Below, in pieces: positions 963 to 29,420 of a DNA stretch of 64,000 nt. Each line of letters begins with the position of its first letter. Position 1 is the stretch's first letter. Both the position numbers and the translations under genes were made by a program. The notes below the pieces were generated by a model. The model was given only the letters and a program-made list of their open reading frames with translations. It had not been told where the DNA came from and ran no database searches. Source of the stretch: an uncultured bacterium (GTDB lineage Bacteria; Nitrospirota; Thermodesulfovibrionia; Thermodesulfovibrionales; Dissulfurispiraceae); NCBI GenBank assembly GCA_937949555.1, contig CALEDV010000048.1:17141-81140 (forward strand), given 5' to 3'.

Positions 963-1937
963 TCAATCAACCCCTAAAAATGCCTCTTCTGCCTCCCTGT
1001 AGAGAAGTTCAGGCTCAGACTTGTACTTCTGAGAGAAATGCATTACCGTCATTCTTCTTACCCCTGCCCTCCTTGCTACAATACCAGCCCATTGAGCAGT
1101 AAGGTGATGCCGTTGCTCTGCCCTTTCGTATTCAGTATGGCTGAAAAAGGCTTCACAATATAGGGAATCTGCCCCTTCTATAAAGGGGATCAACTTATCA
1201 ATATTATCAGCATTAGGTGAAATGTCCATCACATAGCATAGTTTATGACCCTTTGTGAGCATCACGAGATCTGCTAAATCCGATAAGGGGTATCCCTTTT
1301 CACCTACTTGTATTATGTAATCACCCTGAGCCTTTGTCCTGATGGCATTCTTCAATTCTCCAAGCCAGGGTCCCACAGGTAATTGCCTTGCATCTAACAA
1401 TGCCTTGTTGATGTTGATGTGGACATCCTCTTCCACGCAGTATGCAATCACCGGCACCTTATGAGAAAGCACAAGGGCATTCACACTGAAAGCCGCATCC
1501 CTTTTGACTGGATTAGCAAAGGTTCTACTGGGGCGATTTATCCTGACAAATTCATTACAGGCATAGAAACTGGCGCGGTTCAATCGGACATCTTGGATCT
1601 CAAAAACCTCAAGACGCAAGGGATACTCCTTAATAAGGTTCCAAGTATAGCCTTTCAATTTCCCCTCTACACAATCAATTATCCCCGTTGGTCCATAAAT
1701 AGACATGGGGGTATCTTTTTTCAGCAATGTCCTGAGCATAGTGTCAAAACCAATAAAATGGTCTATGTGCATATGGGTGACAAAGATATCCGATACGGCA
1801 TTGAGCTTGCCTTGTTCAAGGGCATCTAAATTGCCTAAATCAAAAAGCATTGCATTCTTACAATGGATCGTCCTTACAAAGAGCACCGGGTCCTCAAAGG
1901 GCTTATTGACTATCTCTGCATGAAAAGTTGGTTTCAT
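963..1937 (-). CDS. MBL-fold hydrolase of the ribonuclease Z type
   Basis: The 324-residue protein has the metallo-beta-lactamase metal motif THMHIDH near residue 55, DISPNAD in the middle (the aspartate ligand region) and MHFSQKY near the C-terminus. The last resembles the HFSxRY element of RNase Z (tRNA 3' endonuclease). The N-terminal half deviates from canonical RNase Z, with no long PxKxxxxLxxG region, so it may be an RNase Z-like hydrolase with another substrate. It would act in the cytoplasm using two zinc ions. It is transcribed divergently from galT and has no close partner. Confidence 0.7.
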   Translation of the reverse strand: MKPTFHAEIVNKPFEDPVLFVRTIHCKNAMLFDLGNLDALEQGKLNAVSDIFVTHMHIDHFIGFDTMLRTLLKKDTPMSIYGPTGIIDCVEGKLKGYTWNLIKEYPLRLEVFEIQDVRLNRASFYACNEFVRINRPSRTFANPVKRDAAFSVNALVLSHKVPVIAYCVEEDVHININKALLDARQLPVGPWLGELKNAIRTKAQGDYIIQVGEKGYPLSDLADLVMLTKGHKLCYVMDISPNADNIDKLIPFIEGADSLYCEAFFSHTEYERAEQRHHLTAQWAGIVARRAGVRRMTVMHFSQKYKSEPELLYREAEEAFLGVD

Positions 1938-1999
1938 AGTGTTATAATCATATCCTATGGAACAAATAATCAGTCAACTATTTTTAAGGAGGTATTTTA

Positions 2000-2998
2000 A
2001 TGCCTGAGTTAAGAAAGGACCCAGTTTCTGGCAGATGGGTCATCATATCAGTGGAGAGAGGCAAGAGGCCCTCTGACTTTATGTCACCCTCGCAAAAGAG
2101 AAAATCCGGTGGGTTTTGCCCCTTTTGTCCTGGCAATGAACACACAACACCCCCGGAGATACTTGCCTTTAGGGAAGCAAATACAGCAGCTAATACGCCT
2201 GGTTGGTCTTTGAGAGTTGTGGCTAACAAGTTTCCAGCCCTTCAGATTCATGGCGAACTTAATAAAAGGGGGGAAGGCGTATTTGATATGATAAACGGCG
2301 TGGGTGCCCATGAAGTCATAATTGAGACGCCGGATCATCTTCAGTCTTTGGCAACGGTTCCTATAAAGCTCGTCGAGGATGTGCTTTGGTCTTTTTTCTT
2401 TAGAATATCTGACCTCAAGAAAGACAGCAGGCTTAAATATGTCCTCATCTTCAAGAATGAGGGAGAGATTGCTGGGGCATCCTTAGAGCACACCCACAGC
2501 CAATTAATAGCCCTTCCCATCGTTCCTCAGCGGGTCAAGGAAGAAATGGACAATTCAAAGAAATACTACGACTCAAAGGAACGTTGTCTAATTTGCGACA
2601 TCATAAATCAGGAGATAGAAAAGGGCAAGAGGGTCGTTAGTGAAAATGACCATTATGTTGCCCTTGCCCCTTTTGCTGCTAGAGACCCCTTTGAGACCTG
2701 GGTGCTCCCGAAGAGGCACGAGTCAAGCTATGGACCAAAGGATAAGAGTTTCCTTGGCCTCGCTGAGATGCTTCAGCGGACGCTTAGACAACTTGATAAG
2801 GTGCTTGATACACCGCCATACAATTTTATGCTCCATACCTCACCCTTTAAAGAGGAACAAAACGACTTTTATCACTGGCACATTGAGATACTGCCGAGGT
2901 TGACAAAGAGGGCAGGGTTTGAATGGGGTTCAGGATTTTACATAAACCCAACCCTCCCAGAGGAAGCAGCAAAATTCATGAGAGAAGCAAAGATATAA
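2000..2998 (+). CDS. galT: Galactose-1-phosphate uridylyltransferase (GalT family)
   Basis: The 332-residue protein belongs to the HIT superfamily. The start region carries a zinc-type pair, FCPFCPGNEH (Cys40, Cys43). GASLEHTHSQ near residue 155 corresponds to the GalT active-site segment, with H-T-H in place of the usual H-P-H. YHWHIEILPR near residue 293 is the second conserved histidine block. The enzyme exchanges UMP between UDP-glucose and a hexose 1-phosphate. A strong Shine-Dalgarno (aaggagg, 1987-1993) precedes the ATG. No other Leloir genes are nearby, so a role in nucleotide-sugar or glycogen metabolism is as likely as galactose use. Confidence 0.85.
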   Translation: MPELRKDPVSGRWVIISVERGKRPSDFMSPSQKRKSGGFCPFCPGNEHTTPPEILAFREANTAANTPGWSLRVVANKFPALQIHGELNKRGEGVFDMINGVGAHEVIIETPDHLQSLATVPIKLVEDVLWSFFFRISDLKKDSRLKYVLIFKNEGEIAGASLEHTHSQLIALPIVPQRVKEEMDNSKKYYDSKERCLICDIINQEIEKGKRVVSENDHYVALAPFAARDPFETWVLPKRHESSYGPKDKSFLGLAEMLQRTLRQLDKVLDTPPYNFMLHTSPFKEEQNDFYHWHIEILPRLTKRAGFEWGSGFYINPTLPEEAAKFMREAKI

Positions 2999-3007
2999 TT
3001 GTTTGCA

Positions 3008-11246: not shown

Positions 11247-12638
11247 TTGTCTGACAATAGAATACTGCTTATAGATGACGACGATGCCGTAGTATGGGTT
11301 GTGCAGAGGGCTCTGGAGCCTCTTGGCTATGAGGTCAGCGCTGTTAAATCATTAAGGGAAGGCAAAAGGGCTCTCGCAGGTTTTAAGCTTATACTCTTGG
11401 ACATGATGCTGCCCGATGGAAACGGCATAGAGCTACTCTCAGAGATCAAGACACTAAACCCAGAGGCTGTGGTCATAATCATAACAGCCAATGGGAGAAT
11501 GGAGAGTGCCATAAATGCCATGAAAGAAGGCGCCTACGACTATCTCGAAAAACCTTTTGACATTGATGAACTGACAATTACTATAAAAAGGGCATTCAGA
11601 GATATTATCATGAGAGAGGAGATATTAGCATTAAGAGACAAGGCTGAGGAGAAATCTCCACTTCAAATAGTTGGAAAGTCCAAGAGCATGTTAAGGGTTT
11701 TTAAGGAGATAGGCAAGGTTGCGCCAAGGGATGTAACAGTGCTTATCTCTGGAGAAAGCGGCACGGGCAAGGAATTGGTAGCTAAGGCAATGCACAATAA
11801 CAGCGCCAGAAAATATGGGCCCTTTGTGGCAATCAACTGCGCATCTATTCCAAAGGAACTCCTGGAGGCTGAACTCTTTGGCTGGGAAAAGGGGGCATTC
11901 TCAGGAGCCATTGAAAAACGGACAGGCAAGATACATGCAGCCTCAGAGGGCACCTTATTTCTTGATGAGGTCTCAGAGCTTGATATAAATCTGCAGGCAA
12001 AACTATTGAGGTTTATGCAGGAACAGGAATACAGCCCCCTTGGGAGCGATAGAACCATAAAGGCAAATGTCCGCATCATAGGCGCTACAAACAAAGACCT
12101 TAAGGACTGTGTAAAAAAAGATGCCTTCAGAGAGGACCTCTACTATCGTTTTAATGTTATAGAAATCAAGATCCCAGCGCTTAGGGAAAGGAAGGAAGAC
12201 ATCATGCTCCTAGCAAGGTATTTCCTTGAGGAATCTGTTAGGCTCTTTGATCTTACCCCAAAGGATTTCTCAAAGGACGCTATAAAGGCCATCCTTGACT
12301 ATCAATGGCCTGGTAATGTGAGAGAGCTTCAGAACATGATAAAAAGGGCATCTATATTGTCAAAAAGCGCCCTCATAGAGCCAAGGGATCTTTTCTACGA
12401 AGAACAAGGCTTCTGCTCAATAAAAGATTTTCTTGAGGGCAAACTAAACAACTACATTCACAAAATGGCAGGCGTGGAAAATTCAAGTCTATATGAAACG
12501 GTAATCACTGAGGTAGAAAGGGCATTGCTGAGTCTTGTAATGAAGGAGACTGGGGGCAACCAAACAAAGGCATCAAAACTGCTTGGCATCAATCGTAATA
12601 CCTTAAACAAGAAGATCAAAGAACTAAAGGTCAGTTAA
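11247..12638 (+). CDS. NtrC-family sigma-54 response regulator (GAFSGA variant)
   Basis: The 463-residue protein has a receiver (DDDD, LILLDMMLPDG), an AAA+ domain (Walker A GESGTGKELVAKAM; Walker B-type GTLFLDEVSEL; RELQNMIKRA) and a Fis-type helix-turn-helix (GGNQTKASKLLGINRNTLNK). The loop that contacts sigma-54 is normally GAFTGA but here reads GAFSGA within ELFGWEKGAFSGA. The conserved Thr is important for sigma-54 contact, so the Ser substitution may alter activity or be a tolerated variant. TTG start; partner of the preceding kinase. It overlaps the convergent sensor gene by 15 bases. Confidence 0.9.
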   Translation: MSDNRILLIDDDDAVVWVVQRALEPLGYEVSAVKSLREGKRALAGFKLILLDMMLPDGNGIELLSEIKTLNPEAVVIIITANGRMESAINAMKEGAYDYLEKPFDIDELTITIKRAFRDIIMREEILALRDKAEEKSPLQIVGKSKSMLRVFKEIGKVAPRDVTVLISGESGTGKELVAKAMHNNSARKYGPFVAINCASIPKELLEAELFGWEKGAFSGAIEKRTGKIHAASEGTLFLDEVSELDINLQAKLLRFMQEQEYSPLGSDRTIKANVRIIGATNKDLKDCVKKDAFREDLYYRFNVIEIKIPALRERKEDIMLLARYFLEESVRLFDLTPKDFSKDAIKAILDYQWPGNVRELQNMIKRASILSKSALIEPRDLFYEEQGFCSIKDFLEGKLNNYIHKMAGVENSSLYETVITEVERALLSLVMKETGGNQTKASKLLGINRNTLNKKIKELKVS

Positions 12639-14027
12639 TCTCTCCGTGCCTTGTTTATCCTTAACTGCCTGTTTGTAGTAGTCAGGATAGAGCCTTTGAG
12701 CACATTCTGGACATAGGGAGTGAGAAAACTCCGCCTCTGAGTGTTCTGTGATGTATGATTCAATCTGCTGCCAGTAACCACTGTCATCACGAATCTTTTT
12801 GCAAGAGGAACATATAGGCAGCATACCAGATAACATCTTCAGCTTATCAAGGGCGCTTTGTAGTTCTGTAATAAGCCTTTCTTTTTCTGCAATAAGCATA
12901 TAACGTTTTGTGATATTCCTGTTTACCCCTCTAAATCCTTTTATCTCTCCCCCCTGATTTATAATTGGCACACCGTTAGATTCAACAAAAACCATCGCCC
13001 CGTCCTTTCTTTTAAGGGGCATTACCCATCCGTTAAAGGGCTGTTTGTTCTCAAGGAAACTATTAAAACCAGAAACCCCAAAAAATACCTCCTCAGGAGC
13101 CATGAAATCGTATATCTTTTTGCCAATCACCTCATCGGGGGCAAATCCAAGCATGTCAATGGTCTGTGAGCTTGAATAGGTATATATGCCCTGTGAATCT
13201 ACTTCCCATATCCAATCGCTCGTAGATTCTATCAGTGCTTTTAGCTTTATCTCACTTTGAGCAAGGGCTTCAGCGGTTGCCCTGTGCCTTAGAATCTCAT
13301 CTTTAAGCACAGCCGATGAAGTCTCAAGCTTCTCAACCATGTCGTTTACTGCCCTTTTAAGTTGACTTATCTCATCACTCCCCTTAACAGGCAGTCTTAA
13401 ATCAAACCTTCCTTGCGATATGTTTTTCAAACCCTCCACGAGGTTGTTATAGGGCGCTACCATGCTATGTTTAACCATGAGGGCATTTATTCCAATGAAA
13501 AATACTACCAGTAAAATTATGGTCAAGGTTATATAACCTGTTCTTGCGAGTATTTCTTCTGTCTTGCCTCTACTTATAGCTAACAATTTGGCTGTATCAG
13601 AGAGCATATAATCAAGCTTAATGTCTATCTGATTCTTCAGCAGGTTCCTATATTCTACATCAAGATTATCAGGATACTTGTCCAGCCCTTGGCTTATCAG
13701 TTGATTACTCTCCTCTAATGCAGCCCTTACCCTTTTTACTATTACCCTTTGTTCTTGATTTGAAAAATCACCCATACTTGTTAATGTGCTTAAAAGGTTA
13801 GCATACCTTGCATCCCACTGAAATCTTGCCCTGCTATCATTGCCATATAATAGGTCATCATTGAGAAGATGAAACTGAAATATGTCTTGAAACACACTGT
13901 ATATCCTGTCCTTCTGTACATTTTCTCGTTCTATATCTCTGTAAGAAACAGACATTATGCCCGTAATTAATAGCAGCCCTAATAGAGGCGCTGTTATTAT
14001 TAGCTTTAATTTTGTTTTGATGCTCAT
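12624..14027 (-). CDS. Membrane PAS/HAMP sensor with C-terminal Cys-rich motif
   Basis: The 467-residue protein has two membrane segments (about 8-27 and 168-188) flanking a helical periplasmic sensor region, then HAMP (190-240), a PAS domain (255-380; DWIWEVDSQGIYTYSS, MLGFAPDEVIGKKI) and a C-terminal ICSSCKKIRDDSGYWQQIES ... CPECAQRLYP segment. That segment is a CxxC...CxxC probable metal site seen at the end of various PAS signalling proteins. No kinase, GGDEF or methyl-accepting output is present, so it may signal through a partner. A probable cyclic-di-GMP riboswitch and terminator lie in its leader. Confidence 0.75.
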   Translation of the reverse strand: MSIKTKLKLIITAPLLGLLLITGIMSVSYRDIERENVQKDRIYSVFQDIFQFHLLNDDLLYGNDSRARFQWDARYANLLSTLTSMGDFSNQEQRVIVKRVRAALEESNQLISQGLDKYPDNLDVEYRNLLKNQIDIKLDYMLSDTAKLLAISRGKTEEILARTGYITLTIILLVVFFIGINALMVKHSMVAPYNNLVEGLKNISQGRFDLRLPVKGSDEISQLKRAVNDMVEKLETSSAVLKDEILRHRATAEALAQSEIKLKALIESTSDWIWEVDSQGIYTYSSSQTIDMLGFAPDEVIGKKIYDFMAPEEVFFGVSGFNSFLENKQPFNGWVMPLKRKDGAMVFVESNGVPIINQGGEIKGFRGVNRNITKRYMLIAEKERLITELQSALDKLKMLSGMLPICSSCKKIRDDSGYWQQIESYITEHSEAEFSHSLCPECAQRLYPDYYKQAVKDKQGTERLTDL

Positions 14028-14126: not shown

Positions 14127-14158
14127 AAAAAAAAAGCCTGTCCAAAGAAAGGACAGGC
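14127..14158 (-). terminator. Intrinsic terminator in the riboswitch leader
   Basis: On the minus strand, the stem GCCTGTCC / GGACAGGC with loop TTTCTTT is followed by nine T residues. It lies between the riboswitch-like fold and the start of the 12624-14027 gene, which is the position expected for ligand-controlled transcription attenuation. Confidence 0.85.
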
Positions 14159-14164
14159 GCTAAT

Positions 14165-14275
14165 TGCATTTATAGCCCCTCCACTTCGACAGCCCCTCTA
14201 TCCACTTAATAAAATGGATGGTAGCTTTGCGTCACACAGTTGCCTGTGCTTTGCCCTTTCGGTGGTTATGCCTTA
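14165..14275 (-). promoter_or_regulatory. Probable cyclic-di-GMP-I (GEMM-I) riboswitch
   Basis: Read on the minus strand, the leader contains CGAAAGGGCAAAGC, a hairpin with a GNRA loop (GCACAG-GCAA-CTGTGT), and then GACGCAAAGCTACC, the most conserved GEMM-I string. A second hairpin (ATCCA...TGGAT) and a closing strand (TCGAAGTGG, pairing with CCACCGA) follow. The order and spacing match the class I cyclic-di-GMP aptamer. A terminator lies just downstream, so ligand binding probably controls read-through into the PAS/HAMP sensor gene. A covariance search with Rfam RF01051 would confirm it. The plus-strand ORF at 14055-14282 is its shadow. Confidence 0.75.
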
Positions 14276-14354
14276 TTTATAATCCCCTTTATGTTAATTG
14301 TCAAGTAAAAATTGAGGATATCTGTTTATTAGAAATGTAGGATAAGGACCTCTT

Positions 14355-15020
14355 TTAGTTAATCTGAATGTATTGCTGCCACAGCATAAAAAGCTCCTTT
14401 GTGGCTCTCAGATCAAGCACACAATACCTCGCAATCTCTTCATACCTGCCAGATTTAAACATCTCAGGCACTAAATATCCATTGAGTTCTTCTGATTTAG
14501 GACTCTTGATGCCAAAGGTTCGGCACCAAATGTCAAGGGCAAACTTTCTTGTAATACCATAAAAGGTAAGCCTGTCAAGGAGATCTATATGTTCATCGCT
14601 GTAGCGGTTTGGTATGAGATTCCTTGAAGGCTTTACCCTGTGCACTGCAGAACGGATTGCAATAAAAGGGGCATCAAAGGCCCTGCCATTGAAGGTGACA
14701 ATCTGTTTGTATTTTGAGACTACCTCCCAGAATTTTTTAATAATATCCTGCTCTGTGCCACTCTCATAGGTGATCCCCTCATCTTCAAAGGCATGGAAGT
14801 GTTCTCTGTCCTGGTAATACACAACGCCCTTATCTGAGTCAGGATTAAGCATTCCTATAGCCACTATCTCCCCTGTTAGCGGATAGAAGGACAGGCTTTC
14901 CTTTACCTTCTGCATCTCCGCCTCTGAGTCAGCAAATCTCAAGAGGTAATCTTGGGTTGCCCTGTCAAGATACTCAAAATCAAAGCCAGAGGTCTCTATG
15001 TCAACTATTATCCTGCTCAA
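14355..15020 (-). CDS. DnaQ-like 3'-5' exonuclease (PolB exonuclease-related)
   Basis: The 221-residue protein has the DEDDy exonuclease motifs: IIVDIETSGFD (ExoI), IVTFNGRAFDAPFIAIRS (ExoII) and YCVLDLRATKEL (ExoIII, YxxxD). This matches the stand-alone exonuclease family related to the proofreading domain of family B DNA polymerases, found in many bacteria and of poorly defined role (repair or RNA processing). It lies six bases downstream of ctpA in the same direction and may be cotranscribed with it. Confidence 0.8.
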   Translation of the reverse strand: MSRIIVDIETSGFDFEYLDRATQDYLLRFADSEAEMQKVKESLSFYPLTGEIVAIGMLNPDSDKGVVYYQDREHFHAFEDEGITYESGTEQDIIKKFWEVVSKYKQIVTFNGRAFDAPFIAIRSAVHRVKPSRNLIPNRYSDEHIDLLDRLTFYGITRKFALDIWCRTFGIKSPKSEELNGYLVPEMFKSGRYEEIARYCVLDLRATKELFMLWQQYIQIN

Positions 15021-26486: not shown

Positions 26487-29420
26487 GTGATTATGGAAAA
26501 ACAAAAGATTCTGATTGTTGATGATATTGCTTTAAATATTCAGGTTCTAAATGAAACCCTTCAGGCAGAATATCAGGTCTTCTTTGCCACAGAAGGTCAT
26601 GAGGCGCTGAAGGTCGCAGAGTCTTTAAATCCCGATATAATCCTTCTGGACATAATGATGCCAGATATAGATGGGTATGAAACCTGCCGTAGGATCAAAC
26701 AACACCCAGTCCTAAAAGATACACCAGTTATATTTATCACAGCCCTTGATGAGGCCCAATACGAGACCACAGGTTTGCATATAGGGGCTGTTGATTATAT
26801 AACCAAACCCTTCAATCCTGAGATAGTCAAGCTCAGAATAAAGAATCATTTAGAACTAAAGAGACATCGGGACATACTGATGAATCTCTCCCACATAGAT
26901 GGACTCACAAATATTGCAAACCGAAGGGCCTTTGATGAGGCATTAGAGAGGGAGTGGCTCAGGGCAAAAAGATCTGGAAGAACACTATCTATTCTTATGT
27001 TGGACATAGACTATTTTAAAAAATTCAACGACACCCTTGGACACGCTGCAGGCGATGAATGCCTCAAGGATGTTGCAAAGACAATCAAAGGGTCCCTAAT
27101 GCGCCCCTCTGATATTGCAGCACGTTATGGCGGAGAAGAGTTTGTATGCCTGCTGCCAGAGACAGATATAAAGGGCGCTATGCACACGGCAGAGAATATA
27201 ATGACAAATATAAAAAGGCTCAATATTCTCCATCCATCATCAGAGATCTGTTCTATAGTAACGGTCAGCATAGGGATAGCCTCTGCCTTACCAACCGATG
27301 ATTCTGACAGCAACGAGCTATTACAATCAGCAGACAAGGCTTTATATGCAGCAAAGAGTTTAGGCAGAAACAGGATTCATGTATCTGGAGATGAAGAAAC
27401 ATCAGGTGCGCCTACTGAGGCAATCTGCCAAGAATTACCCCCTAACACAGAGTTAAAAGAACTTTTGGTTGCTTTTCCTGAAAAAAACCCAAACCCTGTA
27501 ATTTGCATTAATAACAGAGGGACAATATTGTATGGCAACCGAGCCGCCTCTTTGCTTTTCAGTGAATGGTGTTGTTCTCCTGGCAACTGCATCCATGGAG
27601 ACCTTTATAAGTTGCTTGGCAATTTATCGCCCCAGCAGGGAGCCGAACTAAACCTTGGCAACAGGATATATTCCTTCATTGCAGTTCCTGCAAGGGACAA
27701 GGATGCCCTTTTCCTATATGGTATGGACATAACAGAGAGGAAGTATGCAGATGCTGAATTGAAAAGATTAAAGAGCGTTATAGATGAGAGCATTAATATA
27801 GTGTTCATTACAGACTATGAAGGCGTAATAGAGTATATAAACTCCACCTTCACATCAATTACAGGCTATAGCAAGGAGGAGGTGATTGGTCAAAATCCCC
27901 GTATTCTTGCGTCAGGAGAGACCTCTAAGGCTAACTACAAAAACCTTTGGGATACAATCAAGTCAGGGAAAACTTGGAGAGGCATATTCAAGAACAAGAA
28001 AAAGAACGGCGAACTCTACTGGGCTAATGGCTTTATATCTCCAATTAAAAATGAACAAGGCAATATTACGCATTTTATGGCAATCCAAGAGGATATTACA
28101 GAGAAGATGCTTGCAGACGCAAAGCTCAATTATCTAAAAACCCATGACTCGATAACAAGCATCATCAACAGAAACAGATTTGTAGAACTGCTAACGGAAT
28201 CAATTACCTCCCCAGAGAACCCGATTAAGCAGGGAGTGTTGCTTCAAATAAATGTAGATGCCTTTAAACTTATAAATGACACCTATGGATACAGTATAGG
28301 GGATCAATTTCTTAAGAACTTTGCTGATTTTCTCAAAGAACACGCCTCAGAATTAGATCTCAAGAGAATCAGCAGCAGAACAAGTATTATTGGTAGGCTC
28401 GGCGGAGATGAGTTTGCCCTGTTTCTCCCAGATAAAGACGAGCGTGAGGGGGTTCAGATTGCTGAGGAGCTCAGAAGAAAGATAGAAACATACAGATTTC
28501 TTAATGATATGATAAGGGCCACCGCAAGTATTGGCATAGCAGTCTATCCAGAGCAAGGGATTACTACCACAGAACTACTTACCAAGGCAAACGCAGCCAC
28601 AAACAGGGCAAAGGAACTCGGACAAAACCGATGGTATCTCTACAGAGATGAAGACAAATACCTAAAGACAGCGTCCTCAAGCCTTGAAGAAAAGCAGCTA
28701 ATCATTTCTGCTATGGAAGAAGACAGATTTGTTCCCTATTTCCAGCCTATCCTTGACCTTAGAGAAAATAGCATCCATCATTATGAATCCTTAGCAAGAC
28801 TCCTAACCAATGACGGCACTGTGATGCTGCCAAGCTCATTTATATTTACCGCTGAAAGATACGGACTTGTTTCTGGCATAGACAAGATCATTACCCAAAA
28901 AACCATGCAGATACAAGCCGAATTGAGTCGGATTGGCAGAAAGATCTCCTTCAGCATGAACCTATCAGGGAAACACCTTGGCGATGAGAGTATGCTGGAA
29001 TACATAAAACAAATACTTCAGGAGACCGGCGCCAATCCCGAATGCATAGTATTTGAGCTCACTGAAACAGCGGCTATATATGACTTTGCAAAGGCTGTAG
29101 ATTTTGTAAAGGAGTTAAAGAATACGGGATGTAAGTTTTCATTAGATGATTTCGGGGTAGGCTTTACCTCCTTTGTTCATCTTGTAGAGATGTCCGTTGA
29201 TTTTATAAAGATTGACGGCTCTTTTGTAAGAAATCTTCCCAACAGAGAACGAGACAGGGTGCTTGTTAAGGCTATATCGGAAATGGCAAGGGGCTTGGGC
29301 ATTAAAACAATAGCCGAATATGTTGACAAGGAAGAAACCTTAGCGATACTTAAGGATTTAGCTATTGACTATGCACAAGGTTATTATATAGGCAAGCCTG
29401 CTCCTGTATTGATATCCTAA
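26487..29420 (+). CDS. REC-GGDEF-PAS-PAS-GGDEF-EAL c-di-GMP signalling protein
   Basis: The 977-residue soluble protein has a receiver domain (1-120, LLDIMMPDIDG), a first GGDEF domain with active site RYGGEEF and an inhibitory I-site RPSD five residues before it, two PAS-like regions (about 325-405 and 425-545), a second GGDEF domain (RLGGDEF, without an RxxD I-site) and an EAL domain (ESLAR, FELTETAA, SLDDFGVGF, IKIDGSF). All key phosphodiesterase residues appear to be present. It could therefore both make and degrade c-di-GMP, switched by phosphorylation and by PAS ligands. A GTG or the ATG at 26493 may start it. It overlaps the convergent REC-PilZ gene by four bases. Confidence 0.92.
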   Translation: MIMEKQKILIVDDIALNIQVLNETLQAEYQVFFATEGHEALKVAESLNPDIILLDIMMPDIDGYETCRRIKQHPVLKDTPVIFITALDEAQYETTGLHIGAVDYITKPFNPEIVKLRIKNHLELKRHRDILMNLSHIDGLTNIANRRAFDEALEREWLRAKRSGRTLSILMLDIDYFKKFNDTLGHAAGDECLKDVAKTIKGSLMRPSDIAARYGGEEFVCLLPETDIKGAMHTAENIMTNIKRLNILHPSSEICSIVTVSIGIASALPTDDSDSNELLQSADKALYAAKSLGRNRIHVSGDEETSGAPTEAICQELPPNTELKELLVAFPEKNPNPVICINNRGTILYGNRAASLLFSEWCCSPGNCIHGDLYKLLGNLSPQQGAELNLGNRIYSFIAVPARDKDALFLYGMDITERKYADAELKRLKSVIDESINIVFITDYEGVIEYINSTFTSITGYSKEEVIGQNPRILASGETSKANYKNLWDTIKSGKTWRGIFKNKKKNGELYWANGFISPIKNEQGNITHFMAIQEDITEKMLADAKLNYLKTHDSITSIINRNRFVELLTESITSPENPIKQGVLLQINVDAFKLINDTYGYSIGDQFLKNFADFLKEHASELDLKRISSRTSIIGRLGGDEFALFLPDKDEREGVQIAEELRRKIETYRFLNDMIRATASIGIAVYPEQGITTTELLTKANAATNRAKELGQNRWYLYRDEDKYLKTASSSLEEKQLIISAMEEDRFVPYFQPILDLRENSIHHYESLARLLTNDGTVMLPSSFIFTAERYGLVSGIDKIITQKTMQIQAELSRIGRKISFSMNLSGKHLGDESMLEYIKQILQETGANPECIVFELTETAAIYDFAKAVDFVKELKNTGCKFSLDDFGVGFTSFVHLVEMSVDFIKIDGSFVRNLPNRERDRVLVKAISEMARGLGIKTIAEYVDKEETLAILKDLAIDYAQGYYIGKPAPVLIS

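Follow-up and report, generated by a model that had tools for sequence, protein, structure and literature searches.

A GEMM-I riboswitch with U at position 92 of its ligand pocket precedes a HAMP-PAS sensor gene and is predicted to act by transcription termination

A leader on the minus strand of the window (by which we mean the whole stretch of DNA analysed, 64,000 nucleotides long) lies ahead of a gene for a sensor protein, and it had been predicted to contain a cyclic-di-GMP-I riboswitch followed by a terminator. Does this RNA belong to that family, which ligand is it likely to bind, and in which direction would it control the gene? The original prediction left the direction of control unstated, and it overlooked a U at position 83 of the family model, which corresponds to C92 in the numbering of the Vc2 riboswitch. 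The features on which our answer depends are as follows.

14276..14304, minus strand: sigma-70-type promoter (TTGACA at 14304-14299, 17-nt spacer, TATAAA at 14281-14276)
14185..14265, minus strand: GEMM-I (c-di-GMP-I) aptamer with P1, P2 bearing a GCAA tetraloop, and P3 (RF01051; helices co-varying in 11 relatives)
14181..14265, minus strand: P1 helix, 14265-14260 (CCACCG) paired with 14188-14187 (CG) and 14184-14181 (GUGG), AA bulge at 14186-14185
14253..14265, minus strand: 5' strand of P1 plus J1/2 (CCACCGAAAGGGC), proposed antiterminator strand, from its pairing with the terminator region
14255, minus strand: G20 equivalent, ligand contact, canonical G (model alignment, Vc2 numbering)
14228, minus strand: A47 equivalent, stacks between the ligand bases, canonical A (model alignment, Vc2 numbering)
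14189, minus strand: C92 equivalent, Watson-Crick partner of one ligand base, U in the query (Infernal alignment, Vc2 numbering)
14127..14158, minus strand: intrinsic terminator, stem-loop at 14158-14136 and then a T-run
12624..14027, minus strand: controlled gene, 467 aa, with HAMP (187-235), PAS (about 262-374) and a C-terminal CxxC...CPEC module from about residue 380

The leader (14275-14127, minus strand) matches the c-di-GMP-I model RF01051 at 14265-14185 with 57.1 bits in cmscan, the gathering score of this model being 35 (E 1.6e-8 over 64 kb), and the alignment spans the full model, positions 1-87. The Infernal search thus bore out the family assignment at the very place on the minus strand where it had been proposed, and the expected order of elements was found as well: GGGCAAA, a GNRA hairpin whose loop is GCAA, and GACGCAAAGCUACC. 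Covariation was assessed in 11 related sequences (ten with U92 and one with C92, the subclass having been picked by a sequence pattern). The score was 0.203 compared to 0.124 after shuffling, none of 500 shuffles scoring as high; six pairs in P1, P2 and P3 had changed on both sides, and 95.5% of the P1 cells were paired across relatives. The whole genome assembly (2.4 Mb, 89% complete) contains this one GEMM-I element.

Counting both strands, the 64 kb contain three sites that agree with the promoter consensus at 11 or more of 12 positions, and the promoter is one of them; a scan demanding T at the last -10 position leaves this TTGACA-17-TATAAA site unlisted. Transcription is predicted to start at about 14269-14266, just 5' of P1, and the start assumed in the original prediction, 14275, falls just past the -10 box. 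The intrinsic terminator announced ahead of the gene was recovered (one found versus 0.4 +/- 0.7 in shuffled sequences); it has an 8-bp stem with six G-C pairs and a nine-T tail, GCCTGTCC-TTTCTTT-GGACAGGC, and lies about 100 nt upstream of the 467-aa gene. We conclude that the leader element is a genuine riboswitch of the GEMM-I family with its own promoter and terminator. As a member of a known riboswitch family ahead of a sensor gene, the locus is largely ordinary in its biology.

The controlled protein joins an N-terminal membrane/sensor part (TM) to the HAMP and PAS domains, and neither a GGDEF nor an EAL domain was found in its 467 residues, in agreement with what had been anticipated. 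Its last ~75 residues (ICSSCKKIRDDSGYWQQIESYITEHSEAEFSHSLCPEC...; window 12624-12890, minus strand) matched no Pfam model. Many genomes encode this C-terminal module behind receiver and PAS domains; as the end of response regulators and of PAS proteins it is spread over many phyla, often with 60-74% identity, and it consists of a coil followed by [IV]CxxCKKhRxDxGYWxQhExYhxxHSEAxFSHxhCPxC (relatives L043, L172 and L290-L300). It is likely to be a metal-binding output domain. A search for orthologues of the sensor gene found none, the matches being paralogues which share PAS and the C-terminal module. In one of these relatives, from the same taxonomic order (L172, genome G086, 1459-2332), a GEMM-I RNA with C92 immediately precedes the gene of a PAS protein that has this CxxC module, and therefore the pairing of riboswitch and target is not unique. 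Upstream of the riboswitch, at 14355-15020 on the minus strand, a predicted 3'-5' exonuclease (DNA_pol_B_exo2) is encoded, with no functional linkage evident.

We then come to the ligand pocket. The conserved C of the model is replaced by U, all other pocket positions of the query being canonical, and the pocket reads G-A-U, compared to G-A-C in the c-di-GMP consensus and A-A-C in the cGAMP type. G20, A47 and C92 are the contact bases described for Vc2 and Vc1 (PMC4744006, PMC3764141). In the Geobacter cGAMP switch the equivalent of C92, C75, is the Watson-Crick partner of the ligand (PMC9262584), and C92 is known to be less conserved than A47 (PMC9049102). It was plausible to ask whether U92 is an artefact. 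However, the register of the pocket is fixed, as in Vc2, by the P1 pairing CCAC/GUGG and CG/CG with the AA bulge. The pairs C93-G14 and G94-C13 together with this bulge hold it in 11 sequences, and Infernal places seven loci alike, U92 being aligned to the consensus C also in the six relatives L116, L117, L119, L225, L301 and L322. Misregistration was rejected on these grounds, and so was a sequencing error, since U92 recurs in other genomes. Members with U92 score above threshold, and we therefore regard C92 as part of the consensus of a c-di-GMP-specific pocket, without which an RNA may still belong to the Rfam family; what U92 does lower is the claim of c-di-GMP specificity. The specificity of GEMM-I RNAs is normally read from position 20 alone, and not from position 92. 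Natural variants at these two positions were reportedly described by Smith et al. 2010 as still binding c-di-GMP, and we thus treat the substitution in the U92 pocket as known in kind.

The G20/U92 combination recurs in relatives from Nitrospirota and Desulfuromonadia which have an unusual P3 helix in common. In the query this helix is CUACC-AUCC, of the CACC-UGUCC/GGAUAGAGGGG type, and in this it differs from the RF01051 references Vc2 and Cd1. When 396 genomes of the phylum were scanned with a sequence pattern, 14 members proved to have the same P3 type; nine of them have U92, and these nine span several families and more than one order. A tenth U92 member of the type, L182, was found by hand. 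U92 occurs in 10 of 17 RNAs with the P3 type of the query versus 1 of 41 elsewhere (Fisher p 3.6e-6, relatedness not removed), the table being drawn from 56 curated GEMM-I RNAs of the phylum together with two added by hand. The class of Geobacter sp. (G460), of which 277 genomes were scanned, gave 45 pattern matches for the P3 type, with 24 U92, 19 C92 and two A92 as counted from the listed sequences. The 26 loci that were read comprised 14 G20/U92, seven G20/C92, three A20/C92, one A20/U92 and one G20/A92.

Several further pockets were seen among the relatives. The Nitrospirota loci L018, L158, L024, L122 and L020 are GEMM-I RNAs with A20/C92, the known cGAMP-type pocket; the first three belong to genomes with Hypr-pattern matches, and the last two, from the family of the window, to genomes without them. 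L302 (G458, about 1500-1566, minus strand) combines A20 with U92 in a GEMM-I-like RNA, as does the Vc2 variant engineered to bind c-di-AMP. The genome G603 (Desulfuromonadia) has two GEMM-I copies with A at 92, namely L305 (G20/A92) and a second site. The gene downstream of a U92 GEMM-I RNA (L179, G033, 1440-3001) resembles, by its sequence, that of an HD-GYP phosphodiesterase (HDIGMACVP...DHHEKRDGSGYPRG).

How might the RNA of the window switch? To the family, structure, U92, promoter, terminator and gene, all seen directly at the locus, the explanation that we favour and hold to be probable adds a ligand, an affinity and a direction which we infer: a GEMM-I switch would regulate the HAMP-PAS sensor by termination, with c-di-GMP as a ligand bound at lower affinity, and in the OFF sense. 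The RNA would begin at P1. When the ligand is absent, the 5' strand of P1 and J1/2 would pair with the terminator at its 5' arm and loop, and the polymerase would read through; when the ligand occupies the junction, J1/2 (including G20) and P1 would be held, the terminator would form and the sensor gene would be off. In such a pocket c-di-GMP would be held by G20 and A47 as usual, and by a G-U pair at position 92. A transcriptional OFF switch, in which the ligand leads to termination, is predicted from this alternative pairing because ligand binding would fix J1/2 in the pocket and so favour termination.

The pairing itself is strong in the relatives and moderate in the query. In the query, the terminator region offers GUCCUUUC as partner to GAAAGGGC and UGG as partner to CCA, a pairing worth -14.1 kcal/mol; among 101 background terminators this value lies at about the 5% tail, with p 0.10 versus shuffles and rank 18 of 35 against the terminators of relatives. 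Most of the terminator-bearing close relatives have a 5' terminator arm and loop (CCCUUUCGG) whose reverse complement is supplied by the 5' end of P1 with J1/2 (e.g. CCGAAAGGG), and the lengths of A/U runs match between the J1/2 strand and the terminator. Across 35 subclass members from both phyla, matched strand-terminator pairs reached -9.95 kcal/mol versus -8.79 +/- 0.34 for permuted ones (p 0.0005), with co-varying cases such as AAAAGG/CCUUUU, and AAAUGG/CCAUUU in L322, L323 and L327. Chance complementarity due to a common UUCG-type loop is unsupported, as UUUCG was present in eight of nine terminators of the closest relatives versus 2 of 101 other terminators from the same genomes. Folding from 14275 had suggested the antiterminator as the minimum fold, but this was dropped, since with the predicted start the terminator state (-47.4 kcal/mol) is lower than the antiterminator state (-45.7 kcal/mol). 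The predicted gap of 1.7 kcal/mol could plausibly be controlled by ligand binding. Because the terminator is the predicted minimum even without ligand, the switch could be leaky or biased towards OFF.

A c-di-GMP aptamer might also work through another platform, with the 3' strand of P1 deciding as in Cd1, or with control at the level of translation, or as an ON switch. There are precedents (PMC9262584), as Cd1 builds its antiterminator from the 3' strand and pilM works in the ON sense. The 3' strand of P1 also contains CGAA and can pair weakly with the terminator sequence, and in L119 and L224, two loci without a clear terminator, its pairing equals or exceeds that of J1/2. We nevertheless consider such an arrangement unlikely, for the 5' strand pairs better than the 3' strand in each of the nine members of the set that have a terminator, the query included (-14.1 versus -5.4 kcal/mol), and matched specificity is confined to the 5' (P) strand (p 0.025 versus 0.32 for the 3' strand).

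Returning to termination by the 5' strand with c-di-GMP, this dinucleotide is the likeliest ligand of the query, and its affinity is probably lowered by the replacement of a G-C by a G-U pair at 92. The original prediction stands as to family, terminator and target, and its ligand is likely but not guaranteed by the sequence, since the Watson-Crick partner base of one ligand guanine is U. The known cGAMP type, defined by A20, was rejected because 14255 is G. The query genome has 17 GGDEF matches, the intact ones with the canonical Asp, and most of its diguanylate cyclases look intact. Within the window, a 987-aa open frame with two GGDEF domains (about 26889-28631, plus strand) is one of the candidate c-di-GMP enzymes. 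Putative cGAMP synthases (GGDEF with a Hypr-type Ser, GHLVGS or GHLIGS) are widespread in Nitrospirota, with none in the 25 sampled genomes from the family of the window.

One could suppose instead that U92 has shifted the pocket to 3',3'-cGAMP or another A-containing dinucleotide. The ligand G would then lie against G20 and the ligand A would pair with U92, a mirror image of the known A20/C92 cGAMP switches, and a passage of a review citing Shanahan 2011 (PMC12032345) reports that C92U lets Vc2 bind 3',3'-cGAMP. The conservation of G20/U92 in the P3 subclass across two phyla would suit this idea, as would the 24 U92 among 45 matches in the class of Geobacter, cGAMP signalling being known from that lineage (PMC6456294). 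Hypr-type Ser GGDEFs are encoded in other U92 genomes (G068, locus L250; G033, locus L252; also G113 and G424). This co-occurrence was dropped as evidence for cGAMP and counts as weak, because most other families of the order have Hypr genes almost throughout, with or without U92. The query genome itself, in an assembly 89% complete, yielded no Hypr-type GGDEF among the 17 matches and no SMODS/DncV-like synthase, the Hypr pattern was found in none of the 25 sampled genomes of its family, and one genome has members of the subclass of both kinds, U92 and C92. A cGAMP-shifted pocket in the query thus appears quite doubtful. The broader proposal that nature has, in the G20/U92 RNAs with the CACC-UGUCC P3, a second way of recognising 3',3'-cGAMP, unlike the A20 type, and that these RNAs in addition use J1/2 as antiterminator, strikes us as rather improbable. 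A decaying aptamer, with a degenerative U92 and a terminator that is merely a constitutive attenuator, might be suspected from the lack of GEMM-I in two sampled genomes of the same genus and from the query being the sole GEMM-I of its genome, but it is very improbable, as U92 recurs with the same P3, intact helices and terminators in several families of two phyla, and the remaining pocket bases and helices of the query are intact, with promoter and terminator in place.

As a natural U92 group recurs in two phyla with working-looking terminators, the annotation 'c-di-GMP' may mask weaker c-di-GMP sensors or cGAMP sensors. The J1/2 antiterminator, if true, would be a platform unlike those of Cd1 and pilM, the two that are understood in detail. 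The U92 pocket of a recurrent subclass and the apparent antiterminator made of a pocket strand, both read from the sequence, place the locus slightly above the ordinary.

Compared with known systems, the query shares with Vc2 and Cd1 of RF01051 the full-length covariance match, the P1-P2-P3 fork, the GNRA tetraloop on P2, the G20 and A47 equivalents and a P1 with bulged A. Rfam variant families, c-di-GMP-I-UAU and c-di-GMP-I-GGC, are named after binding-site bases; the query reads G-A-U, and its best score is to RF01051 in a scan that keeps only the best match of the clan. If the name UAU is read as positions 20/47/92, that family presumably has U at 92 too. The engineered Vc2 C92U mutant (crystal structures 3MUR, 3UD3 and 3UD4 in the PDB; PMC10671752) has the identical substitution at the same pocket position, but it was engineered into the P3 and GAAA tetraloop of Vc2, whereas the query is natural and has another P3 type and tetraloop. 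The GEMM-Ib cGAMP riboswitches of Geobacter (Gmet_0970/pilM, pgcA) resemble the query in fold, in family model and in having one ligand-contact base off the c-di-GMP consensus, yet they are A20/C92 where the query is G20/U92, and pilM is of the ON type. With Cd1 the query would share OFF control of the terminator type, and it would differ in the antiterminator strand, proposed here to be the 5' one (P1 and J1/2), which in Cd1 is the 3' strand of the aptamer (PMC9262584).
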